A stretch of DNA of 64,000 bases from Flavobacterium sp. 9 (GTDB taxonomy: Bacteria > Bacteroidota > Bacteroidia > Flavobacteriales > Flavobacteriaceae): the NCBI RefSeq assembly GCF_002754195.1, contig NZ_PEEU01000001.1, forward strand, positions 1,426,001 to 1,490,000, written 5' to 3'. Shown here piece after piece: positions 973 through 48,321 of this stretch; within the stretch, counting starts at the first letter, position 1, and the number at the start of each line of letters is the position of its first letter. The position numbers and the translations under genes were made by a program. The notes beneath the pieces were generated by a model. It was given only the letters and a program-made list of their open reading frames with translations, did not search any database and was not told the DNA's origin.

Positions 973-3900
973 ATGATCCATTTCTTTGAAAACCAAAGCA
1001 AAACTGTTTTTGCCGTACAAACGCAAAACGAAATTTCGGCTCAAGACATTTCAAAATTAAACTGGCTTTTTGCCAACTCTAATAAGATCGAAAAATCCGC
1101 CTTGACGGATTTTTTTGTTGGTCCACGTGCCACTATGATCACACCTTGGAGTACAAATGCTGTAGAAATTACTCAAAATATGGGTATTCCGGGCATTATC
1201 AGAATTGAAGAATTTCATCCGGCAACGGAAGATTTCACGGATTTTGATCCAATGCTTTCACAAAAATTCAATCAATTAGATCAGGAGATTTTCACGATTA
1301 ATGTTCAGCCAGAACCAATTTTGGAAATCGATGATATTGCGACTTACAACAAAGTAGAAGGTTTGGCTTTAAGCCAGGAAGAAGTTGATTACTTAGACAA
1401 TCTTGCTGTAAAACTAGGAAGAAAGTTAACTGATTCTGAGATTTTTGCTTTCTCACAAGCGAATTCAGAGCACTGTCGTCACAAAATCTTCAACGGAACT
1501 TTTGTTATTGATGGTGAAGAAAAAGAAACTTCTCTTTTTAAATTAATCAAAAAGACATCACAGGAAAATCCTAACGATATAGTGTCTGCTTACAAAGACA
1601 ACGTTGCTTTTGTAAAAGGACCAAAAGTGCAGCAGTTTGCACCAAAAACAGCTGACAAACCAGATTATTATGAGATAAAAGAATTTGATTCGGTTTTATC
1701 TTTAAAAGCAGAAACACACAATTTCCCAACAACTGTAGAGCCTTTCAACGGAGCTGCAACAGGTTCAGGAGGAGAAATTCGTGACCGTTTAGCTGGTGGT
1801 CAAGGTTCACTTCCATTAGCTGGAACTGCAGTTTACATGACTTCATATTCTCGTTTGAATGATGACAGAAAATGGGAAAATGCTGTTGAAGAAAGAAAAT
1901 GGTTGTACCAAACTCCAATGGATATTTTGATCAAAGCTTCAAACGGAGCTTCTGATTTTGGAAATAAATTCGGTCAACCGTTAATTACAGGTTCGGTTTT
2001 AACTTTCGAACATTCAGAAAACGACCGTAAAATTGGTTACGATAAAGTAATCATGCAAGCGGGCGGAATTGGTTACGGAAAATTAGATCAGGCAATTAAA
2101 AAGAAACCACAAGAAGGTGATAAAATCGTAATTCTTGGTGGAGAAAATTATAGAATCGGAATGGGTGGAGCTGCGGTTTCATCTGCAGATACCGGAGCTT
2201 TTGGTTCAGGAATTGAATTAAATGCAATCCAACGTTCAAACCCTGAAATGCAAAAACGTGCTGCCAACGCGATTCGTGGTTTAGTAGAAAGCGACAATAA
2301 CCCAATTGTTTCGATTCACGATCACGGAGCTGGAGGACACTTAAACTGTCTTTCGGAATTGGTGGAAGAAACTGGAGGTTTAATCGACTTGGATAAATTA
2401 CCAGTTGGAGATCCTACACTTTCTGCAAAAGAAATTATTGGTAACGAATCTCAGGAAAGAATGGGATTGGTTATTGGTCAAAAAGATATTGATACTTTAC
2501 AAAGAATTGCTGACAGAGAGCGTTCGCCAATGTATCAGGTTGGAGATGTTACGGGAGATCACCGTTTTACATTCGAATCAAAATCTACTGGTTTGAAACC
2601 GATGGATTATGCTTTAGAAGATTTCTTCGGAAGTTCTCCTAAAACGGTTATGACTGACAAAACTATCGATAGAAAATATGCTGATGTTGCTTACAACGCA
2701 GGAGATTTTGAATCATACTTAAAAGACGTTTTACGTTTAGAAGCAGTTGCCTCAAAAGATTGGTTAACTAATAAAGTTGACCGTTGTGTAGGTGGAAAAG
2801 TAGCTAAACAACAAAATGCAGGACCGCTTCAATTGCCTTTGAATAATGTTGGGGTTATGGCTCTTGATTATTTAGGAAAAGAAGGAATCGCAACTTCTAT
2901 TGGTCACGCTCCTATCGCTGCTTTGATTGATCCGGTTGCAGGAAGTAGAAATGCTATTGCAGAATCGTTATCAAACATTGTTTGGGCGCCAATTAAAGAT
3001 GGTTTAAAAGGAATTTCATTATCTGCAAACTGGATGTGGGCTTGTAAAAACGAAGGTGAAGACGCTCGTTTGTACGCTGCCGTTGAAGGTTGTTCAGATT
3101 TTGCAATCGAATTAGGAATCAATATTCCAACAGGAAAAGATTCACTTTCGATGAAACAAAAATATCCAAATGACGAAGTAATTGCGCCGGGAACGGTTAT
3201 TATTTCGGCTGGAGGAAACTGTACAGATATTAGAAAAGTAGTGGAACCGGTTTTACAGAAAAACGGAGATTCTATTTATTATATCAATTTGTCTCAGGAT
3301 GATTTCAAATTAGGAGGTTCTTCTTTTGCACAAATTAGAAACACAATCGGAAACGAAACTTCTACCATAAAAGATGCTTCTTTCTTCAAAAATGCATTTA
3401 ATACCGTTCAGGATTTAATCGGCGAAAGCCAAATTTTAGCTGGACATGATATCGGAAGCGGTGGTTTAATTACTACTTTATTAGAATTGTGTTTTGCTGA
3501 TGTAAATCTTGGAGCAAAAATTGATTTCAGCGCTTTCGCGGAAAAAGACTTATTAAAAATTCTTTTCGCTGAAAACATCGGAATCGTTTTCCAGGCAAAA
3601 TCTGATTCAGCTGTAGAAGCTAAATTGAAAGCTAACAATATCGAATTCTTCAAAATTGGTACAGTTCAAGAAACTGCAGCTTTAGAATTTGGAGATTATA
3701 AATTGGATATTCCAACTTACAGAGATATTTGGTTTGAAACTTCTTATTTATTAGATCAAAAACAATCTAAAAACGGAAGAGCTCAGGCACGTTTCGAAAA
3801 CTATAAAAATCAAGTCTTACAATATACTTTCCCAGCGCACTTTACAGGAAAAAAACCAGTAATCGACGCTTCAAAACCGAGACCAAAAGCAGCTATTATC

Positions 3901-4839: not shown

Positions 4840-4965
4840 TTATTTTTTTTGAAAGTTGTGGCAATACTGACATACAATTCCCCACCAGATCATTGCTAAA
4901 AAAGCAGTTAACATTTGATTTAGTATTAAATTAATGCCTACTCTTTTGCTTTTCGGCTTTCGCAT
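4840..4965 (-). CDS. Putative 41-residue single-pass membrane protein
   Basis: A short ORF in the purL/barrel gap. It starts with a basic stretch (MRKPKSKRVG), followed by one hydrophobic segment (ILNQMLTAFLAMIWWGIV) and a short tail with CQYCHN. A hairpin with a T-run on this strand directly follows the stop. No ribosome binding site is visible, which is normal for this phylum. I do not recognise the family. Basic head plus one membrane span plus dedicated terminator is the reason for calling it; conservation is untested. Confidence 0.45.
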   Translation of the reverse strand: MRKPKSKRVGINLILNQMLTAFLAMIWWGIVCQYCHNFQKK

Positions 4966-5006
4966 TTTAATAAAATAAAAATACTGTTGTCGTTCTTCAA
5001 ATCACT

Positions 5007-26037: not shown

Positions 26038-27135
26038 CTATTTTACGAAGATTTCTTTCAATTGACCAATTACGTTTCCGCTTCCTGAAATTGTGATTTC
26101 TCCAATTTTGTCGGCGATTTTTTCTACGTATTCCATCTCTTTCAATTTCCACAACATTTCGTTTTCTTCCATGAGCTTTGCTGTGTTTAGCAAACTTCTT
26201 GTTGCGGCAGTTTCTTCTCTTCGCATAATGCTGTTGGCTTGCGCTTTTTTCTCGGCAACCAAAACCTGATTCATGATTTCTTTCATATCTCCTGGCAAAA
26301 TCACGTCTCGGATTCCAGCATCAGAAATTGTCAAACCTAACTCAGTGATTTTAGTAGTTACTTCTGCCAAAATCGATTCTGCAATAGAGTCTTTTTTCGC
26401 CAATAACTCATCCAAAGTCAATCCGCCAACAAAAGCTCTCAAAGCCAATTGCATTGCTACATACAATTGTTTCTCGAAGTCTTTGTTATCAACAAGCGCT
26501 TTCATAATATCAATAACCTGGTATCTCACAAAGAAATTGATTCTTAATCCTGCCTTATCTTTTGTCAACAATTCTTGTCCGGAAATCTCTACTTGTTGTT
26601 GTCTTGCATCAACAGTTTTAACTTCGATTGTAATGCTATTGTTCCAGAAATAATGCGTTCCCGCTTTTAATTCTTTCACGAAAGTTCCATTCACAAACAA
26701 CAAAGCTTTGTCGTTGCTCGAGACAATGAATTTTCGAACATAGTATTTCAACTGATTGTGTTTTAACAAATTCGCCGAGATATTCTCTGTGATTTCAATC
26801 TTAGAAAGATCTACTCTGGTAAATTCATTTTTCACAATTCCTTTCCAGAACGCATATCTTCCTGCGGCCAAAGTCCCTTTAAAGTTCCCGTTCACGAATT
26901 GCAAAACAATCTCATTATCAGCAACCGCAACAACTTCTAACATTGAAGCCAAAATTTCGTTTTCCAACAAAATATTCAACTCAAATGGCGCAATGAAATT
27001 CGCATTCATATCGTAAATCATTACATTCTTGTTTCCAAAAATCCAATGTAAACCTTGCTCAATTACGTTAACTAATTTTCTATTTTCGAACACCAAACCC
27101 ACTTGGTACGCCTCGATTTTTACTTTTTTTATCAT
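26038..27135 (-). CDS. Slipin/SPFH (band 7) family protein
   Basis: 365 residues from ATG 27135 (MIKKVKIEAYQVGLVF); the frame extends to 27168, but the extra residues are basic and outside the family. The SPFH core carries NVIEQGLHWIFG, TVDARQQQVEISGQELLTKD and ISDAGIRDVILPGDMKEIM, followed by a helical coiled-coil tail (AEKKAQANSIMRREETAATR). There is no clear membrane anchor. SPFH proteins oligomerise at membranes; slipins recur beside RNA-repair genes (RtcB, RNA ligases), where their role is unknown. The leader of this gene carries the permuted tRNA-like elements. Confidence 0.88.
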   Translation of the reverse strand: MIKKVKIEAYQVGLVFENRKLVNVIEQGLHWIFGNKNVMIYDMNANFIAPFELNILLENEILASMLEVVAVADNEIVLQFVNGNFKGTLAAGRYAFWKGIVKNEFTRVDLSKIEITENISANLLKHNQLKYYVRKFIVSSNDKALLFVNGTFVKELKAGTHYFWNNSITIEVKTVDARQQQVEISGQELLTKDKAGLRINFFVRYQVIDIMKALVDNKDFEKQLYVAMQLALRAFVGGLTLDELLAKKDSIAESILAEVTTKITELGLTISDAGIRDVILPGDMKEIMNQVLVAEKKAQANSIMRREETAATRSLLNTAKLMEENEMLWKLKEMEYVEKIADKIGEITISGSGNVIGQLKEIFVK

Positions 27136-27141
27136 CTTATA

Positions 27142-27282
27142 TTTTTGTTTCAAGTTTTTTGGTTTCATGTTTCATGTTTTGTAACCGTAAAAACTTAGTT
27201 CTATTTTCTCAAATTTTTGTTTCAAGTTTTTCTGGTTTCAAGTTTCAAGTTTCGTAACCGTCAAAACTTAGTTCTATTTTCT
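27142..27282. repeat. Two-copy tandem direct repeat, unit about 72 bases
   Basis: Copies at 27142-27209 and 27214-27282 share TTTTTGTTTCAAGTTTTT, GTTTCA-GTTTCA and GTAACCGT-AAAACTTAGTT with few changes. It lies between the slipin start and the tRNA-like elements. The rest of the 27283-27633 gap shows nothing else I can support. Confidence 0.75.
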
Positions 27283-27633
27283 ATTCTCTATATTCTATCC
27301 ACAACAATCTTGCTTCTAAAATCTTGCATCTATCTTATCTAAAAAAATAAAAAAACATCAATGTCTCTCTCCTCTGAGAAAACGGATGAATAGTTGGTGT
27401 TTTGTATATTCTAAATGTTTTGCAATTCTATTTTGTGACAGCGATTCTAAATTCTAAAAAAACCGCTAAAACAATCAAACCGAAAAGAAAAAGAGTATTT
27501 CAAAATACGTTTCTGTTCGCACTGGTTTTATCTTGAGTGTGAAACTTTTGGATCCTCAAATCCAGGTTTCACTGACAAAGACAAATCAGTTTTTTTTCAA
27601 TGGTCATCTTTTTAAGAGTGATGGTCTCTAAAC

Positions 27634-27704
27634 ACAGATTTTCAGTCTGTAGTTGACTTACCGTTTGTCTAACCGAACTTAATCGGTGCAGGACTCGAAC
27701 CTGC
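27634..27704 (-). ncRNA. Permuted tRNA-like element with Phe-type anticodon arm
   Basis: 71 bases read on the minus strand in the order T-arm, acceptor, D-arm, anticodon arm. T-arm GCAGG-TTCGAGT-CCTGC; acceptor stem ACCGA/TCGGT closed by a six-base loop (TTAAGT); D-arm GAC-AAACGGTAA-GTC; then ACAGA-CTGAAAA-TCTGT, a 5-bp stem with a 7-base loop, U33 and GAA in anticodon position. This is the tRNA order circularly permuted with its break in the variable region. Three extra bases precede the anticodon stem, so it is not an intact tRNA. Confidence 0.6.
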
Positions 27705-27711
27705 AGAAATT

Positions 27712-27777
27712 TCTATTACTCTAACCGATTGAGTTACCGCATTGCTGCGAATGGGACTCGAACCCACAACACATAGA
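27712..27777 (-). ncRNA. Permuted tRNA-like element, acceptor capped by a GCAA tetraloop
   Basis: 66-base core with its ends at the anticodon stem. The half-stem TCTAT (27773-27777) comes first, then a 5-base variable region, T-arm GTGGG-TTCGAGT-CCCAT, acceptor hairpin TCGCA-GCAA-TGCGG, TA, D-arm ACTC-AATCGGTTA-GAGT, A26 and the partner half-stem ATAGA (27712-27716). Stem lengths equal those of a standard tRNA (27-31/39-43, variable loop 5, T-stem 5). This is the layout of the tRNA-mimic module of bacterial Y RNAs. The flank 27778-27983 contains further hairpins (for example TTTGGA/TCCAAA) and could be its outer stem. Confidence 0.65.
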
Positions 27778-27983
27778 TTGTGATCGTTTTTTGGAAAACA
27801 ACCTAAAACCTCCAAATCAAGTTGCATAGAAAAACATAATACGCTTTCGCGAAAAGTTCCCTACAATGGTGCTATACAGAAACACGCAACAAGACTTGTT
27901 TGATATTGTAAATCAAAGTTTCCTTTGATGTATTTCATTTTTTAAAAGAACGTTTTTTATTTCCTGAGCAAATATTCAAATTA

Positions 27984-29565: not shown

Positions 29566-29574
29566 CATTTTAGT

Positions 29575-29647
29575 TCAGGAAAAGAGATTCGAACTCTCAA
29601 AATACCGATTCTAAATCAGTCGCGTCTACCAATTCCGCCATTCCAGC
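29575..29647 (-). tRNA. tRNA-Leu(TAG)-like element, degenerate
   Basis: 73 bases in normal order. D-arm TGGCGGAATTGGTAGACGCG is typical of leucine tRNAs. Anticodon arm ACTGA-TTTAGAA-TCGGT reads TAG. T-arm AGAG-TTCGAAT-CTCT is good. But the long class II variable arm is missing, and the acceptor (GCTGGAA against TTCCTGA) has two mismatches. No CCA is encoded. Probably not a working tRNA but a decoy or remnant. Confidence 0.6.
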
Positions 29648-29794
29648 ATTTTTTTTAAAGGTTCTGAGGTACTGAGATTCTAAGTTGCTAAGTTTTTTTT
29701 CTTAGCGCACTTGGTCAATCTCTCGCAAAGACGCTAAGTCGCAAAGTTTTTAACCTTTGAACCTCTGCACCTTTGTACCTTTACAAAACCTTGT

Positions 29795-29865
29795 CTGAGA
29801 AGTAGGATTCGAACCTACGACCTCCCGCATCCAAAGCGGGTAAACAACCACCGTTATCTTCTCAG
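29795..29865 (-). tRNA. tRNA-Pro(TGG)-like element
   Basis: 71 bases, the best-formed of the set. The acceptor CTGAGAA/TTCTCAG is perfect, the anticodon arm CCCGC-TTTGGAT-GCGGG has TGG and U33, and the T-arm is GTAGG-TTCGAAT-CCTAC. The D-arm is abnormal (TAAC-GGTG-GTTG, a four-base loop), and the acceptor is unlike usual proline tRNAs, which start with CGGGG. CCA is not encoded. Confidence 0.65.
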
Positions 29866-36803: not shown

Positions 36804-37160
36804 ATTATTTCGTTTCTGATATTTAAATTTACTGCCTATTTTACGTCATATAATATCAAATCTAATTAGAAAAATTTTCTTACCATTATGGTAATCCATA
36901 ACTAACCTATAAATCTGTTGAACAGTCATTTTTATGTTAAAAAAGAATAATACATTTAAGTTCCAAGAAAAATAAAATTCTCTATAGTTTCCTTCGAAAC
37001 TATTATAAACTGTGAAACTACTACCACAACAAATAGCAGAAAAATAGTTTAGCAATAACTATTGTGGTGTTTTTTAAAGAGATTATTTAGTAAATATCTT
37101 AGAAATATAAATTCCCCTAAATACAGAGTATTTCAAGCTTTTAATCCAAAAAAAAAATAA
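36804..37160. other. Gap without recognisable gene
   Basis: AT-rich leader region of the SEC-C gene. A 69-codon frame (36846-37055, minus) has no protein-like composition. Nothing else is supported. Confidence 0.5.
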
Positions 37161-37231
37161 AGGTGCGCAAGGACTCGAACCTGCATCCTTCCCCCTTGGT
37201 GGGGAACGCTCTTCCAATTGAGCTAACACCT
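37161..37231 (-). tRNA. tRNA-like element, loop CACCAAG (no U33)
   Basis: 71 bases. Acceptor AGGTGTT/CGCACCT (one mismatch, one wobble), D-arm GCTC-AATTGGAA-GAGC perfect, anticodon stem TTCCC/GGGGA. The loop has A instead of U at position 33, so formal anticodon CCA is doubtful. T-arm GCAGG-TTCGAGT-CC-T-TGC carries a one-base bulge shared with the next two elements. No CCA end. Confidence 0.6.
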
Positions 37232-37310
37232 TCATTAGGATTGTATTTTTTATGCCACGAAGGCGATAAGTCGCAAAGTTTTATTTTAAGCTTTGAACCC
37301 AAAAAAGTAA

Positions 37311-37381
37311 AAGCGTGCAAGGACTCGAACCTGCATCCCTCAGTTTAGCAAACTGCTGCTCTTCCAATTGAGCTAACGCTT
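37311..37381 (-). tRNA. tRNA-Ser(GCT)-like element without long variable arm
   Basis: 71 bases. Acceptor AAGCGTT/CACGCTT (six of seven pairs), D-arm as in the neighbour, anticodon arm CAGT-TTGCTAA-ACTG with U33 and GCT (Ser). A bacterial serine tRNA should have a class II variable arm, but only five bases are present. T-stem bulge as in the neighbours. Confidence 0.6.
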
Positions 37382-37469
37382 TCATATAAATTTGCCACAA
37401 AGGCAACCAAACACAAGTTTCAAACCCTTTGAACCTTTGCCACTCTGAACCTCTGAGCCTTAAAAATAA

Positions 37470-37540
37470 AGGTGTGCAGGGACTCGAACCCGCAACCGCT
37501 CGCGTGGTGGGCAAGTGCTCTTCCAATTGAGCTAACACCT
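37470..37540 (-). tRNA. tRNA-like element, loop CCACCAC (no U33)
   Basis: 71 bases. Acceptor AGGTGTT/CACACCT, D-arm GCTC-AATTGGAA-GAGC, anticodon stem CTTGC/GCGAG. Position 33 is C, so it should not decode normally. T-arm GCGGG-TTCGAGT-CCC-TGC with the shared bulge. Confidence 0.6.
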
Positions 37541-37545
37541 TTGTC

Positions 37546-37614
37546 GGATAGTTGGGACTCGAACCCAAAACCAATGCGGTGGCTGCACTTATTTTTCCAA
37601 TTAAACTACTATCC
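37546..37614 (-). tRNA. tRNA-like element, loop AGCCACC (no U33)
   Basis: 69 bases, beginning five bases after the SDR stop codon. Acceptor GGATAGT/ACTATCC is perfect, but the D-arm has decayed to TTT-AATTGGAA-AATA. Anticodon stem AGTGC/GCATT has wobble, and the loop has G at 33. T-arm TGGG-TTCGAGT-CCCA is good. It forms a four-member array with the elements at 37161, 37311 and 37470. Confidence 0.6.
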
Positions 37615-37619
37615 CATTT

Positions 37620-42517: not shown

Positions 42518-43390
42518 CTAAAAATCCCCATAATAAACTTGGAAGCACGGTAATTTCAAGTCATTTCTCCAGGTGTCAACTACTTGGTTTCTATCGTCGA
42601 GAACAAATTCTACAAAGTATTTATCTTTTATAGATTCGTTGTAGATTTCGGTTTTGATGATCGAGTCTTTTCGGCTATCCTGAGTTTTTCGCATGATTAA
42701 AGCATCGTATTCGATTTCGTGTTTTTCAAGAAACCTCAACGTTGGTGCTTTGTATCGGTCTTCTCTTCCCGAAACTAATAATATCTCATAACCCAATTTC
42801 TTGTAATTTCTCAACACATTTGCCACCGGATCATTGATTTCGTCCTGATCACATTTGCTTGCATCAAACGGGTTTCTTCCGTTCATTAAAGCCAAAGTTC
42901 CGTCAAGATCGCAGATAATTGCTTTTGGCAAATCTGGGTTTTGGATCGCGTATTCCGGTGAATCTTTAAAGAATTGTCGGTGCATTTTTTTGATCACTTT
43001 TTCGCCAACAGGTTTTTCTCTCAAAGCATCTCTTTCGATACAAATCGCAACATCTGTATTGACTTCCATAACCTCAACTTCTACCTTTTCGTTGAATTTT
43101 GTGTTGTATTCTTTAACTAATTGTGAAACTCGTCTTAAATTAGTTTCTGACAAATTGGTATCATCAATCACAATGCTTTTTCCTTCTTCTAAAGCTTTTA
43201 CGATTAATAAATCACGCACTTTTTTAACGAATTTCTCGTTGCTTTGGCTTGTATTTCCGTTATCAAACATAGCGCGCAAATCGTCTCTGTTGATTCTTTT
43301 ATAAGTTTCTGGATTATCTGCAATTATCTTTTTTGCCAAAGTAGATTTCCCACTTCCCGGCAATCCTTTCATTAAAATTACTTTTCTCAT
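42518..43390 (-). CDS. T4-like polynucleotide 5'-kinase/3'-phosphatase
   Basis: 290 residues from ATG 43390 (MRKVILMKGLPGSGKSTLAK). Kinase P-loop GLPGSGKS at 9-16 with lid-type residues later, then a HAD phosphatase with DLDGT at 161-165 and LLVSGRED. Kinase-then-phosphatase order and length match bacteriophage T4 Pnkp (about 300 residues), which converts 2',3'-cyclic-phosphate and 5'-OH ends into 3'-OH and 5'-phosphate. The start lies one base after the stop of the Rnl1-like ligase, so the two enzymes are co-translated. Together they heal and seal cut tRNAs. Confidence 0.92.
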   Translation of the reverse strand: MRKVILMKGLPGSGKSTLAKKIIADNPETYKRINRDDLRAMFDNGNTSQSNEKFVKKVRDLLIVKALEEGKSIVIDDTNLSETNLRRVSQLVKEYNTKFNEKVEVEVMEVNTDVAICIERDALREKPVGEKVIKKMHRQFFKDSPEYAIQNPDLPKAIICDLDGTLALMNGRNPFDASKCDQDEINDPVANVLRNYKKLGYEILLVSGREDRYKAPTLRFLEKHEIEYDALIMRKTQDSRKDSIIKTEIYNESIKDKYFVEFVLDDRNQVVDTWRNDLKLPCFQVYYGDF

Positions 43391-43391
43391 T

Positions 43392-44408
43392 TTATTCTTC
43401 TTCTCTATTAAACGGTTTTTCAAATGTTGGCCGAATCATTTTCCATATAATGACCGAATAATCTTTGTTATTCAGCATTGCAAATAATACGCCCGGATGT
43501 TTACAAGTCATGAAATACAAAGCGGTTTCTTTGACAGTTTCTAATACTTTGAAATCCTTTTTTGCCTGATTTTTTATTACCGCATATTGATTTTCTAAAT
43601 CTTTCTTAGTTTCTTTTACCCAATCAAAAAACTCATCGGGAACACGTTCCAGAATTTCTTCCATTGGCTGATTTGTTTTCAAATATTCCCAGATATTCAA
43701 ATTAGAAACCTGAGTAATAATTCGGTGTAAACGAAGATACTCTTCAAATTTAATTTTTACTCTAAAGTTGTTTGCATATTTAATTATAAAACCTTCTTTG
43801 TTCGCAATATCCATTTCTTTTAAAAGGGAAATATCTTTGATTCCGTTGTATTTTTCAACCAAAGGAAATCCAATATCTTCCAGCGGAAATTCTTCACCTG
43901 TTTGTGTATCAATAATGGCAAGTAAAACCAATTCTTCCGCCGAACCATAATCTAAAACAATTCGGTTTTCAGGATAAATAATCTCGAATAAATAGGTTTT
44001 GTTTTTATCCAAAAGTGACCATGAATTTCTATATTTTCCGTGTAACATTTTATTCGCTTTATCCGATTGTTCGCTTGCAAAAGAACCTCGGCTTGCCATA
44101 AACGGAACCTCATCTATCCAATACAAGATTCCCATTGAACCATCCATTTTATCATAAACTTCAAAAGTGGTATCCGGAAGTATTTGATTTTCCATTTCGC
44201 CCAAATTAAAAAACTTAGGAAAAGGTCTTGCAATTACATTCTCTTTTTCGTCCAAAATTAAACCTCTGCACGCCAAAGTAACATCATTCCAAATTCTTTC
44301 AAATTGTGCACTTTGTGTGTAATTATAAATATATAAATCATGTTTAGGATGTTTGTTTACCCTTACATAATTTTTGGAAATCATCTCTTTTAAAAGCGTT
44401 ATATTCAT
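43392..44408 (-). CDS. T4 Rnl1-like RNA ligase
   Basis: 338 residues. Adenylylation motif I is VYDKMDGSMG, with Lys87 as the nucleotide acceptor. Motif III-like YLFEIIYPENRIV, motif IV EGFIIKY and motif V RVKIKFEEYL follow, and the C-terminal region is helical. T4 Rnl1 repairs tRNA cut in the anticodon loop, with Pnkp preparing the ends. Here the ligase is directly upstream of the kinase/phosphatase. A TGCGCAA palindrome lies 35 bases before the start. Confidence 0.92.
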   Translation of the reverse strand: MNITLLKEMISKNYVRVNKHPKHDLYIYNYTQSAQFERIWNDVTLACRGLILDEKENVIARPFPKFFNLGEMENQILPDTTFEVYDKMDGSMGILYWIDEVPFMASRGSFASEQSDKANKMLHGKYRNSWSLLDKNKTYLFEIIYPENRIVLDYGSAEELVLLAIIDTQTGEEFPLEDIGFPLVEKYNGIKDISLLKEMDIANKEGFIIKYANNFRVKIKFEEYLRLHRIITQVSNLNIWEYLKTNQPMEEILERVPDEFFDWVKETKKDLENQYAVIKNQAKKDFKVLETVKETALYFMTCKHPGVLFAMLNNKDYSVIIWKMIRPTFEKPFNREEE

Positions 44409-45520: not shown

Positions 45521-46051
45521 TTAATGATTTAAGAATTCATACTTCAGATATTCTTTCAAATTGTTTCTGAATACAATTATATCACCACCCATAACAGAAA
45601 TAACTGGAGAAAGATATTTATTCTCGAAAACAACAAGTACTCTGTGGTTGTAAATTGGAATGTAACCTACAATTTTAGAAACGTCAAATCCTGCTTCTGT
45701 TAAAACTTCTTCTGCATAAAACCTGAATTTGTTTATATCTTCAATCAACCATTTTGATTTCTCAATATCTCTTGGATATTGGTAGAAAAAATCAACAAAT
45801 CTTATTTCCTCTTCTCCATCTGGATCAATTGAAATTTCCGGAGTATCTAATCCTCCCAGAATTAAAAGCATTTCTCTATAGTCCCAAGGAAAATCAAAGC
45901 CAAATAATACTTGTAATTGATCTATTTCTTTTCTGCTAATACCTTTTGTAAACTTGGTATTAGGTTGTATTTGAAATCCATAACAATCATCTCTGAGTTG
46001 TATCTTTTGAAACTTCTTTTCGGCTTTATATTTTATTTCTTTGATTGTCAT
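45521..46051 (-). CDS. SMI1/KNR4 (SUKH) family protein
   Basis: 176 residues. KGISRKEIDQLQVLFGFDFP, then DYREMLLILGG and a later YIPIYNHRVLVV are the SUKH-fold hallmarks. SUKH proteins are often immunity proteins of contact-dependent toxins but have other roles. It sits between the Y-RNA-like array and the nucleotidyltransferase; the leader contains the last array unit (46092-46145), whose hairpin could regulate this gene. Confidence 0.8.
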   Translation of the reverse strand: MTIKEIKYKAEKKFQKIQLRDDCYGFQIQPNTKFTKGISRKEIDQLQVLFGFDFPWDYREMLLILGGLDTPEISIDPDGEEEIRFVDFFYQYPRDIEKSKWLIEDINKFRFYAEEVLTEAGFDVSKIVGYIPIYNHRVLVVFENKYLSPVISVMGGDIIVFRNNLKEYLKYEFLNH

Positions 46052-46091
46052 AATCTAAAATATTTATGTTTTTAATTTTAAAAGAGGTAAT

Positions 46092-46145
46092 GTTTAGGAA
46101 TGGTCTAATTTTCTTTGGAACGAAGTAACCATTTCCTGACGACAC
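46092..46145 (-). ncRNA. Y-RNA-like unit 6 (no tRNA insert)
   Basis: Minus-strand GTGTCGT, then stem AGGAAATGGT, invariant TACTTCG and a short loop, then ACCATTCCT closing the stem with one bulged A. Sequence of the stem differs from the other units, but pairing is preserved (covariation). Confidence 0.6.
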
Positions 46146-46167
46146 TCTTTTTTTTAAGAGCAATATT

Positions 46168-46215
46168 GTATAAGTGATGATTTTCATGTAAGACGAAGTA
46201 ACACTTTATACACGG
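46168..46215 (-). ncRNA. Y-RNA-like unit 5 (no tRNA insert)
   Basis: GCCGT, stem GTATAAAGTG, TTACTTCG and a loop of about 17 bases, then CACTTATAC. Nine pairs with one bulge, same position as in unit 6. Confidence 0.6.
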
Positions 46216-46243
46216 CATCTTATAATTTTGAAAAAGCAACAAT

Positions 46244-46287
46244 TGATGAGAATTCTTTTTGGAACGAAGTATTTCTCACACACGACA
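46244..46287 (-). ncRNA. Y-RNA-like unit 4 (no tRNA insert)
   Basis: TGTCGTG, stem TGAGAAA, TACTTCG, short A-rich loop, then TTCTCA. The most compact unit. Confidence 0.55.
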
Positions 46288-46312
46288 TTTTTCGAATTAA
46301 AAAGAAGTTAAA

Positions 46313-46426
46313 GGCAATAAGAGAAACGGGGCTTGTCTTGCCAGAGTCGAACTGGATAACCTTGCTGCTTCTAAAACTTCGCTATTCCTCCCCAAATTTG
46401 AGACGAAGTAACCCTTATTTACGACA
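46313..46426 (-). ncRNA. Y-RNA-like unit 3 with tRNA-like insert
   Basis: Starts TGTCGTAAATAAGGGTTACTTCG-type (AATAAG stem) and ends CTCTTATTGCC. The insert holds a T-arm CCAG-TTCGACT-CTGG, a D-arm-like AGCGAAGTTTTAGAAGC and a GGGG/CCCC stem. Here the D-like part precedes the T-arm, unlike units 1 and 2. Confidence 0.6.
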
Positions 46427-46456
46427 TTCTTTTTTATTTTTAGTATTGGATAATAA

Positions 46457-46565
46457 GCAATAAGAGACTATATAATTGTGTGTTACCATTTCACTATCAG
46501 CCTAAACTGAACAGGATTCGAACCTGTACTACAATTCCCCTGAAGTAACTCTTATCTACGAAACC
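46457..46565 (-). ncRNA. Y-RNA-like unit 2 with permuted tRNA insert
   Basis: Outer stem ATAAGAG/CTCTTAT, then TTACTTC. The insert has half-stem AATTG, 4 bases, T-arm ACAGG-TTCGAAT-CCTGT, acceptor TCAG-TTTAGG-CTGA (TCAGTTT can pair with AGGCTGA), D-arm GTG-AAATGGTAA-CAC as in Gln/Glu tRNAs, and partner half-stem CAATT. AATTG and CAATT form a perfect 5-bp anticodon-type stem continuous with the outer stem across an internal loop. Confidence 0.72.
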
Positions 46566-46593
46566 AATACTTATTTTTTAAAACAAGGCAACT

Positions 46594-46716
46594 GGCAATA
46601 AGTGACATATCCTGCTCTAACCACTGAGCTACATTTCTGTAATTAAACAGAATTGGTGGGGATCGAACCCACGTCCCGGGCGTTATCAATGCGAAGTAAC
46701 ACTTATCTACGACACT
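46594..46716 (-). ncRNA. Y-RNA-like unit 1 with permuted tRNA insert
   Basis: Outer stem ATAAGTG/CACTTAT with GTGTCGTAG before and TTGCC after; TTACTTCG on the 5' side. The insert has T-arm GTGGG-TTCGATC-CCCAC, acceptor TTCTGT-TTAATT-ACAGAA (six pairs, six-base loop), then D-arm AGCTC-AGTGGTTA-GAGC. It retains TTGATAA, an Ile-type anticodon loop, in front of the T-arm. It starts about 90 bases after the ro60 stop. Confidence 0.72.
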
Positions 46717-46767
46717 TGTTTTTTATTCTTATTTTCAATGAACATTTCTATTGCAAAGATTCAAATA

Positions 46768-46794
46768 CTACTGCGCGATTATTTTGCGCAGTAG
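46768..46794. promoter_or_regulatory. Palindromic operator, copy 4 of 5
   Basis: CTACTGCGC-N9-GCGCAGTAG, perfect 9-bp arms, with GAATCTTTG downstream on the minus strand. It lies between the ro60 stop (46804) and unit 1, so the RNA array probably has its own promoter. Confidence 0.68.
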
Positions 46795-46803
46795 ATTTTA
46801 TTT

Positions 46804-48321
46804 TTACAATTCTATTCGGTTGATGTAATTCAAAGCGCTGCTTTTATCGTCTAAAGCATTCAATACATCAAATACTTTATCTGACCAACCGGCAATTAAA
46901 TACACATCGTTTTTCTCGACATTTATTGGTGCCTGACCGTAACCTGCCAAATCAAACAAATACAATTTTGCATTTGGTGCGATATTTTTATAGCGGTTCC
47001 AGGAGTTTGCAAATGAATCTTTTGTGTAATTACTATTCCACATTTGAACATCTGTAAACAACATTACTTTGTCTACTATTTCTTTTCGGCTAATCAAATC
47101 TTCCAAAACCAAATAACCGTTTGTCGAATAACCTACTTCACCTTCGCGTTTGTAATACTCGTTTACATTTGACAATATGGCTCGTTTTGGCATATTGATT
47201 ATTTTCCATCGATCACCAAACATACCGCTTACGACATTTTTACAACGGTTTTGCATCAACATACCCAACATCAAACCAATATCATAAAGCATTACTTTAC
47301 TTTTTGGCGAGATATTTTTTTGCATCGAACCCGAAACGTCACAAGCAATTACAACTGATGTATGGATATCGAAACCTTTTATATTTTGTGCACTCACCAA
47401 AACGGCATCTTCTAAAGCATCCAAAATCATGGATATATATTTAGAATCTAAGGTTTTTAACTCGCGATAAGCGGCTAAAAATCGGAATGGTAATTGTTTC
47501 GAATTTGCAACTGCTTTTTCATTAGAAAGATAATCACAAACTTTTAATATATGAAATCGCGAAACGTTGGCTTCGACTATATTTCGTAAATTTCGCAACA
47601 AAGCCATGTAACCAATTTTGTTACTATCGATCAATTCTTCCCATTTTTGAGTGAATGCTTTTTGTTTTTCGGCTTCGTTAAAATACTTTATCTGACCTAT
47701 TTTTGACAATTCGGTTTCCCAGGTATATGGCGTTTCTAAACTATCGTTTACTATTTTATTGAATAATATTTGTTGTGCTTCGTCTTTTGCTTTTGGATGT
47801 ACCAAAAACAATGCATCTTTTAATTTTACTGCACCATCTCGGTTGTATTTTGCGAATTGGTATTCATCAAATTTATTGAATGAATGCGCCAAACCTTTTT
47901 GTATTTGTTTAGACAAACGGTTTAATTTTTTGATTCCGTTTCGCTCGTTTGCCATTTGGTAATACGCCAATAATTCGGTTATTTCGTCTGCACGTTGTAT
48001 AACTTGTGTAATCATTTTACTGATTAAGGAATCACCGGAATATATTTTTGCCAATTCAACAATTAATACTAATGGAACTGAACGCATATGCATTTCGTTT
48101 CGGGCATAAACGGCTAGTTTTGCAACAAAAACAGGATCAGCTTTTTTGATCAACTCTTTAATTCTTTCTAAACGAGTTGTATCTTTTTCATAAAATGAAG
48201 CATTCAAACTTGTTGTTACAACCGCTGCATACAATTCATAATCTGTTGTTAATGTATATGCTGTTGCATTTTCGTAATTCATTACGGTGTTTTTTTCTTT
48301 TGCTAAAAAATTGAATTTCAT
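46804..48321 (-). CDS. Ro60/TROVE-domain RNA-binding protein
   Basis: 505 residues, the usual size. The TROVE HEAT-ring covers about 14-320 (FVAKLAVYARNEMHMRSVPL, YMALLRNLRNI) and a vWA domain follows with an intact MIDAS DVSGS at 328-332 and later TDVQMW. The ring binds misfolded RNA ends in its hole and Y RNA on its outer face; bacterial Ro60 works with exonucleases and Y RNAs in RNA quality control. The array of Y-RNA-like units begins just behind the gene. Symbol rsr would be used by Deinococcus homology; not asserted. Confidence 0.95.
   Translation of the reverse strand: MKFNFLAKEKNTVMNYENATAYTLTTDYELYAAVVTTSLNASFYEKDTTRLERIKELIKKADPVFVAKLAVYARNEMHMRSVPLVLIVELAKIYSGDSLISKMITQVIQRADEITELLAYYQMANERNGIKKLNRLSKQIQKGLAHSFNKFDEYQFAKYNRDGAVKLKDALFLVHPKAKDEAQQILFNKIVNDSLETPYTWETELSKIGQIKYFNEAEKQKAFTQKWEELIDSNKIGYMALLRNLRNIVEANVSRFHILKVCDYLSNEKAVANSKQLPFRFLAAYRELKTLDSKYISMILDALEDAVLVSAQNIKGFDIHTSVVIACDVSGSMQKNISPKSKVMLYDIGLMLGMLMQNRCKNVVSGMFGDRWKIINMPKRAILSNVNEYYKREGEVGYSTNGYLVLEDLISRKEIVDKVMLFTDVQMWNSNYTKDSFANSWNRYKNIAPNAKLYLFDLAGYGQAPINVEKNDVYLIAGWSDKVFDVLNALDDKSSALNYINRIEL

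Follow-up and report, generated by a model that had tools for sequence, protein, structure and literature searches.

What are the six repeated, partly tRNA-like segments that follow the ro60 gene of Flavobacterium sp. 9, and what do their shared flanks and differing inserts mean? The segments lie in a window of 64,000 nucleotides, the whole stretch of DNA analyzed here (contig NZ_PEEU01000001.1, positions 1,426,001 to 1,490,000). Bacterial Y RNAs are known with a tRNA-like domain, with tether and gate roles and in operons with two yrl genes (PMC7790460, PMC8394870, PMC4726728, PMC7824862). They are described as separate RNAs of 90-150 nt (PMC8394870), Rsr binds their lower stem, and a Y RNA tethers Rsr to PNPase (PMC4726728, PMC7790460). 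In pull-downs from commensals, Bacteroides thetaiotaomicron among them, Y RNAs were found in the Ro60 RNPs (PMC11277228). According to a 2020 paper, Deinococcus radiodurans was until then the only organism in which the functions of bacterial Ro60 and Y RNAs had been studied (PMC7790460).

Judged from its sequence, the locus very probably holds an array of Y RNAs. We further consider it likely that the six units belong together as a conserved array of likely Y RNAs, that they are probably transcribed as one RNA, and that each combines the same predicted Ro60-binding platform with a different head. The shared platform, the variable heads and the bond to ro60 are demonstrated below from sequence. 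That the heads choose partners may also be the case, a proposal we rate a little below even.

Six consecutive units directly behind ro60 were found on the minus strand, bounded by ro60 on one side and a SUKH-1-like gene on the other. They and their neighbors are the following.

42518..43423, minus strand: polynucleotide kinase-phosphatase (PNKP; RNA end healing), Pfam HAD_PNKP, E 7e-51
43392..44408, minus strand: T4 Rnl1-like RNA ligase, downstream of the array, Pfam RNA_lig_T4_1, E 1.5e-17
45521..46051: SUKH-1-like gene between array and RNA ligase, Pfam match just under the cut-off
46079..46152, minus strand: unit 6, the last unit; common platform, short head with cap UUC-CAAA-GAA (46111-46120)
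46152..46225, minus strand: unit 5; common platform with UGCCGU, insert of 28 nt
46228..46295, minus strand: unit 4; common platform, short head (cap 46253-46264), insert of 22 nt
46299..46434, minus strand: unit 3; common platform, head 46328-46404 with pseudoknot GUC/GAC crossing GGGG/CCCC, helix AUARY/RYUAU, a small hairpin and a T-arm hairpin (46341-46355)
46442..46571, minus strand: unit 2; common platform but with UUUCGU and 3' ..AU in place of ..RC; head a permuted tRNA of another type, with T-arm 46511-46527, acceptor hairpin 46497-46510 and D-arm 46480-46494
46580..46722, minus strand: unit 1; outer stem, UGUCGU loop, inner stem, UUACUUCG and permuted tRNA head, with T-arm 46656-46672, loop-closed acceptor hairpin 46632-46655 and D-arm 46614-46630
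46768..46794, minus strand: GC-rich hairpin CTACTGCGC..GCGCAGTAG between ro60 and array, putatively a terminator or processing hairpin
46804..48321, minus strand: ro60, TROVE/Ro60-family protein of 505 aa
49707..50720, plus strand: divergent WYL-domain transcription regulator (Pfam WYL/WCX), probably the regulator of the island

The Ro60 protein matches Pfam TROVE at E 2.2e-29 (103.4 bits, cut-off 23) and has PDB relatives in 9l5y and 9kop ('TROVE domain-containing protein', E 2.5e-22). Its vWA_Ro60 match of 23.7 bits stays below the cut-off of 27.7, and the NCBIfam Rsr equivalog yields 25 bits, far below the 900-bit cut-off. A PADLOC run on ten island proteins returned no defense system, only matches to WYL, to TatD/QatD-like and, weakly, to kinases.

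The comparison drew on the best 80 among 229 ro60 loci (Flavobacterium, Chryseobacterium, Epilithonimonas, Pedobacter, Saprospiraceae and others), together with a genus sample of 249 genomes, 22 of them with ro60, and a class-level draw of 295 genomes, 14 with ro60. Ten duplicate loci (L083-L087, L089, L090, L092, L095, L096) and the window's own copy were excluded, leaving 91 distinct loci. Neighbors were counted within flanks of 6 kb, or 1.5 kb for part of the loci. Homologues of the WYL regulator lie near ro60 in 38 of the 91 loci, and homologues of the ligase and of PNKP in five each. SUKH-1-like homologues were seen near ro60 in 13 of 91. Of 78 loci tested, 34 have their first unit less than 400 nt away from ro60, and 24 of these carry a perfect hairpin, 8 bp or longer, no farther than 70 nt from the ro60 stop. 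A promoter search by the TAnnTTTG box gave nothing convincing, the box being present in only 2 of 34 gaps.

All units of the window follow one plan. From 5' to 3', an outer stem, an internal loop and an inner stem are followed by the motif (U)UACUUC(G) and a head, after which the 3' strands of the two stems close the unit. The two ends of each unit pair into a long stem with an internal loop, as in bacterial Y RNAs, which is borne out by arm swaps and by a co-varying pair in the loop (see below). A finder built from the core motif and two pairing stems recovers all six units that the initial annotation had placed on the minus strand. That annotation saw the inner stem alone; a second, outer helix exists in every unit, and because it was missed the array, given as 46092..46716, was drawn too short, its true span being 46079-46722. 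Both stems vary in sequence from unit to unit with pairing retained, the outer one being for instance AGTATTGG/CCAATACT in unit 2, AAAAAGAA/TTCTTTTT in unit 3 and AAAAGAG/CTCTTTT in unit 6. The single bulge reported for the inner stems of units 4-6 is present in units 5 and 6, and unit 4 pairs without one.

The internal loop reads U-G-Y-C-G-U on its 5' side and ends in A/G-C on its 3' side, with UGYCGU in five of six units and ..RC likewise in five of six. The GTCGT described as common to all segments is GUCGU in units 1, 3, 4 and 6, UUCGU in unit 2 and GCCGU in unit 5, while of the supposedly invariant TACTTCG only TACTTC occurs in 6/6 units, the full motif in 5/6. TACTTCG had also been named as candidate Ro60 site. 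It is neither the sole nor probably the best candidate, since the UGYCGU/..RC loop contains a co-varying Y-R pair and, lying between the helices, sits at what we take to be the place of the Ro60 site in known Y RNAs. This pair, formed by the third base of UGY and the 3' R, is not scored by the finder; in the 439 of 489 units with a score of at least 30 and an insert of at most 200 nt, it is U-A in 188, C-G in 179, U-G in 31, C-A in 2 and something else in 39. The Ro60-site motif of bacterial Y RNAs is GNCGAAN0-1G. Units 1, 3, 4, 5 and 6 with G(U/C)CGU and unit 2 with UUCGU are related to this motif, not identical with it, and the YrlA consensus at the corresponding site of the Rfam alignment is gCgaAUG.

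Several controls address chance. Shuffling a 1 kb stretch 20 times gave no unit, a comparison made easy by the motif filter of the finder. With equal search freedom, the units' own stems score 32-36, whereas 28 of 30 swaps of arms between units reach 13-28 and the remaining two 31 and 35. Among 99 units sampled from other loci, own stems beat same-locus swaps in 97 (mean 34.2 vs 22.1). Across 79 loci, the finder detects 425 units downstream of ro60 on its strand (0.47 Mb), compared with 4 upstream (0.58 Mb) and 11 on the opposite strand (1.05 Mb). Calls scoring below 28 were discarded (91 of the 580 first found, including those dropped for strand or position), and the 20 of 489 calls with inserts longer than 200 nt are often chance hits or two merged units. 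Folding of single units gave significant z-scores for units 5 and 6 (-2.98 and -3.30), unit 6 folding into the proposed stems, and insignificant ones for units 1-4 (-0.75, -1.36, 0.57 and -0.42). Folding energy was therefore rejected as evidence for units 1-4, whose case rests on covariation and conservation.

The stem covariation noticed at the outset is backed by the arm swaps, by the platform Y-R pair and by two alignments. In alignment A1 (29 sequences with the pseudoknot head of unit 3, class B), 94.9% of cells are paired vs 82.2% in shuffles, double changes occur in 21 of 34 pairs, and the covariation score of 0.453 vs 0.204 is reached by none of 500 shuffles and exceeds all slid versions; the count of further pair types is equalled by 9 of 500 shuffles. 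Alignment A2 (27 sequences with permuted tRNA heads, class A) has 93.2% of cells paired vs 81.0% in shuffles and double changes in 18 of 26 pairs, again with a covariation score equalled by 0/500 shuffles. The paired-cell figures are partly built in for the outer and inner stems of both alignments, as the finder demands pairing of both arms. Pairing in the head helices is not selected in this way, and these helices alone contain doubly changed pairs in 7/20 cases (A1) and 9/15 cases (A2). Within the pseudoknot, double changes are confined to GUC/GAC, in two of its three pairs; GGGG/CCCC hardly varies and is thus untouched by the test. The covariation at the RNA level disfavors a reading of the repeats as an integron attC array.

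Conservation of the stems beside ro60 was then assessed in the relatives. At least two two-stem units are present in 90 of the 91 loci, or in 89 when inserts above 200 nt are dropped; the one locus without units (L040) ends about 200 nt after ro60. At least three units occur in 86 loci and at least five in 61, with a median of five and a maximum of 12 (L049). Sequence motifs were used to sort the units into class A (permuted tRNA), B (pseudoknot), E (short) and T (lone T-arm), leaving 35 of 483 units outside the window without a head class. The order ABETE is found in nine of 31 Flavobacterium-type loci and AABETE in two; the other 20 show 15 different strings, many of them apparently the result of missed or merged units. 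Head classes are shared across genera, and a permuted tRNA head stands together with a short or T-only unit in 78/91 loci. Linkers are 8, 7, 3, 2 and -1 nt in the window (8-bp outer stems counted); in the 31 loci, counted alike and for inserts up to 130 nt, their median is 4 nt and 96 of 109 adjacent pairs lie at most 15 nt apart. In Chryseobacterium, units are scattered over kilobases, some with a gene between them.

The initial annotation had proposed a covariance-model search as a check. R1, a model made from 29 class-B units and thus trained partly on the genomes scanned, matches 22/22 ro60-positive and 0/227 ro60-negative genomes of the genus sample. All 74 listed matches there fall in the array beside ro60, the weaker ones on other units of the same array. 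In the class-level draw, R1 matches 12 of 14 genomes with ro60 and 0/281 without; the two missed (L117, L118) have seven and two units by the finder, and in one genome of this draw (G329) a distance of 25 kb on the same contig separates the units from ro60. R2, the corresponding model of class A, was rejected as a specific detector at E <= 0.01, where it matches 237/249 genomes, most probably because adjacent tRNA genes provide the same order of T-arm and D-arm. At 56 bits or more, it gives 34 matches, found in 22/22 ro60-positive vs 0/227 ro60-negative genomes, the best outside an array reaching 52.3 bits. These scans of many genomes used stricter filters, so that weak matches are lost. In the window, R1 scores 145 bits on unit 3 and R2 132 bits on unit 1, both training members, and R2 57 bits on unit 2. 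By these sequence searches, the units occur only where ro60 is present within the sampled bacterial genomes.

The heads differ within the single array of the window and comprise two permuted tRNA elbows, a pseudoknot with a T-arm, and short caps. The heads of units 1 and 2 consist, in this order, of a T-arm, an acceptor hairpin closed by a loop, and a D-arm; the platform stem consequently occupies the place of the anticodon arm. These heads retain T-arm and D-arm, with neither an anticodon nor a free acceptor end. They had been recognized as permuted tRNAs at the outset, and the assignment holds, with the arm order of YrlA (Rfam RF02553) and weak matches of 25.4 and 24.9 bits to its model. A bacterial Y RNA locus reportedly has at least one RNA with a tRNA-like domain of permuted arms (Chen et al. 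2014), and here units 1 and 2 carry one. By weak assignment, the head of unit 1 is closest to tRNA Thr/Lys/His, and that of unit 2 to host tRNA-Gln in its D-arm and to Met/Tyr in its T-arm. ARAGORN called no tRNA within 46079-46722, and the Rfam tRNA model reached at best 23.3 bits on the array, under its gathering score of 29. Unit 3, described earlier as a tRNA-like insert in another order, aligns as a class of its own with pseudoknot and T-arm; the reading as a reordered tRNA was rejected in favor of this separate conserved fold.

Units 4-6 had been called empty. This is true in the window, and short units, present in 74 of 91 loci, are conserved as a class. An empty unit 5, by contrast, is peculiar to the window and the loci nearest to it: 22 of 31 close relatives carry a lone T-arm motif in their penultimate unit, immediately preceding the final E unit, in an insert of about 45 nt. 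A small cap, UYC-N2-8-GAA, is common to 65/126 short units and appears in 5% of shuffles.

Among 115 heads with the D-arm motif TAGCTYA, 111 have a GG within 5 nt, corresponding to the D-loop GG of tRNAs. How many class-A heads have a T-loop was not used as evidence, which would be circular as the class is defined by T and D motifs. Sorted by motif, D-arms are of the common TAGCTCA type in 119 cases, Gln-like GTGTAA in 19, Glu-like CGTCTAA in six, Ser/Leu-like in five and of another Leu-like type in four. Several tRNA types occur among the heads of one array, up to four in L049. Twelve loci, 11 from Chryseobacterium and the twelfth (L027) from a bin labelled Limnohabitans, have a head of some 177 nt that starts with 25-33 nt of 23S rRNA sequence, presumably helix 69 to 71. 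The piece is identical to the 23S of its own genome at 31 of 33 nt in L043, agrees with Chryseobacterium 23S genes at 24/25 nt in L044 and 23/25 in L027, and matches the 23S profile at E 2e-7. The remainder of the head gave no match to that profile, and a 23S copy spanning the entire 177-nt insert was rejected, the match being confined to its start.

Two further observations concern heads of relatives. Three of them (L027 at 8182, L098 at 3921, L119 at 3469) contain CGCCTGTCACGCTA, which we take to resemble the tRNA-Asp anticodon loop; other heads are without an anticodon. A conserved head class of 79-88 nt (..TTAGACCTCAAAATCTAAG..CCGAATAACAGTAAGGA..) is found in 13 Chryseobacterium loci, e.g., L033 at 10315, L036 at 10584 and L037 at 9932.

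With units beside ro60 in relatives, the two-stem plan and YrlA-like heads, the Y-RNA-like character proposed for the segments is upheld, and the closest known systems can be compared. YrlA and the Salmonella operon rsr-yrlBA-rtcBA share with the window the place beside a Ro60 gene and the long stem with a tRNA elbow. YrlA also shares the order T-arm, loop-closed acceptor, D-arm (alignment; PMC8394870), and the Salmonella operon an RNA-repair neighborhood (PMC7790460), in the window given by ligase and PNKP following the array. The repair enzymes themselves differ, a T4 Rnl1-like ligase and PNKP here vs RtcB/RtcA in Salmonella, as does the number of units, with two yrl genes by operon name in Salmonella vs six here and a dozen at most elsewhere. 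The scores of the window against RF02553 fall below its gathering score of 69, the best of seven loci scanned reaching 43.8 bits (L101). The platform UGYCGU..UUACUUCG is unlike the YrlA model, in which the pseudoknot head, the lone T-arm head, the short caps and the 23S segment have no counterpart.

The complex of Rsr, Y RNA and PNPase in D. radiodurans (RYPER) likewise has a Ro60-type ring tethered via a Y RNA (PMC4726728), and its tether-and-gate role is the model adopted, by analogy, for the array. RYPER has one tether and PNPase as its partner, whereas the window has many heads and PNPase is only a proposed partner. Six units in a row, half of them empty, had initially been thought undescribed. 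Two Y RNA genes per operon are known from Salmonella (PMC7790460), and the claim can be made only for the literature searched. That literature, which did not extend to the central Y RNA papers, contained no Y RNA arrays with mixed heads, a pseudoknot head or a 23S segment.

How might such an array work? The units are probably co-transcribed, because separate promoters would not fit into linkers of 8 nt at most; one transcript would not be the general case, since Chryseobacterium units spread over kilobases with a gene between some. A single transcript from the strand of ro60 would then probably be cut into units. By analogy with known Y RNAs, Ro60 would grip the platform, and the tRNA-elbow heads may recruit proteins that read elbows, such as PNPase, tRNA-modifying or end-healing enzymes. 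One Ro60 ring could thus be supplied with different partners, and the short units, bringing no partner, would fill Ro60 and serve as gates. As a tentative generalization, possible though somewhat less so than partner choice itself, Ro60 in Bacteroidota would possess exchangeable, RNA-coded tool heads: one transcript with up to a dozen modules, a repertoire of the ring set by the Y RNA it holds, and heads swapped in evolution on a fixed platform. Modules would offer elbows of different tRNA types, a T-arm alone or within the pseudoknotted fold, or part of 23S rRNA, and some would offer no surface.

Instead of recruiting, the heads might act as decoys that imitate tRNAs, or 23S rRNA in relatives, and soak up RNA-cleaving toxins or nucleases, with the repair enzymes of the island mending the damage and Ro60 only stabilizing the RNAs. 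RNA ligase and PNKP downstream of the array, heads of several tRNA types in one array and the 23S segment in 12 loci would all fit, and Hughes et al. suggest that YrlA may competitively inhibit anticodon nuclease; the same paper also reports that YrlA fragments were not detected under tRNA-cleavage conditions (PMC7790460). We regard this explanation as unlikely. The usual cleavage sites are missing from the permuted heads, which lack an anticodon arm and have a loop-closed acceptor, so that elbow recognition fits them better than the decoying of anticodon nucleases; short caps imitate nothing evident, and within the flanks taken, homologues of the two repair enzymes are near only five loci each.

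A different use of the same platform would be a scaffold, in which the array stays one long RNA along which as many as six Ro60 rings are lined up. The short linkers of the window and the recurring order in Flavobacterium-type loci would suit it, yet the scattered units of Chryseobacterium and the size of known bacterial Y RNAs, described as separate molecules of 90-150 nt (PMC8394870), make it less probable still than decoys. The idea that the units are not Y RNAs at all, being left over from tandem tRNA genes or belonging to a repeat element that spread behind ro60, draws on the fact that neighboring tRNA genes yield the order of T-arm and D-arm unaided and on one tRNA called by ARAGORN inside the L018 array. 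It is hard to reconcile with co-varying stems and heads, non-tRNA folds among the heads, head classes recurring across genera, the absence of ARAGORN tRNAs from the window's array and the co-occurrence with ro60, and we consider it extremely improbable.

On the preferred reading of an array of Y RNAs with a common platform, several natural heads on one platform in a single genome amount to a ready-made domain-swap experiment. It lends itself to direct tests of whether partner choice lies with the head, whether short Y RNAs work as gates, and whether mimicry of tRNA or rRNA serves repair, decay or protection. Co-occurrence with ro60 also offers a marker for Y RNAs across Bacteroidota and ro60-bearing phages.

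In phages, R1 or R2 matches lie beside ro60 in six of seven IMG/VR ro60 contigs and in phage csAssE-Sib. As in the window, the units of phage Ro60 loci are mostly tandem, carry TACTTC or a variant and adjoin ro60; they differ in preceding ro60 and in a core of UGGCGU, UGGUGU, UGGUGA or UUGCGU/A. The finder built on the window returned none in the seven IMG/VR loci. Two to five tandem units were seen per phage or IMG/VR locus, some with permuted tRNA heads and some short, at the following positions.

L126, 4290-4966: units before ro60
L125, 2120-2560: units before ro60
L129, 3415-3690: units before ro60
L127, 4610-4920: units before ro60
L162, 1950-2395: units before ro60

Other RNAs were observed elsewhere in the window. 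A DUF805b RNA motif lies at 4935-4966 on the minus strand (44 bits). A second tRNA-like noncoding RNA, with two tandem permuted tRNA modules and an anticodon-like arm at its end, occupies 27560-27960 of the minus strand, before an SPFH/HflK-like gene (26038-27168); its homologues of about 320-380 nt are found in 13 Chryseobacterium loci, e.g., L043 at 2820-3190, and the same 13 loci carry a homologue of the SPFH/HflK-like gene.

The tRNA genes of the island (37158-37615 and 29573-29865, minus strand) score low, four of them at 36.5-48.6 bits; of 66 other listed tRNAs of the genome, with 150 of 590 candidates scored, one has 43.1 bits and 65 have at least 50.6. By eye, several of the island's anticodon loops seem to lack U33, and tRNA-Pro at 29793-29865 has an odd D-arm (GATAACGGTGGTTGTTT) in common with L044, L030, L041 and L069. 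In seven of 72 loci scanned (L044 at 1292-3290; L030, L031, L039, L041, L065, L069), additional tRNA genes stand near ro60 in clusters of four to 16, nearly all of them upstream of ro60 on its strand; they might serve as a spare set.
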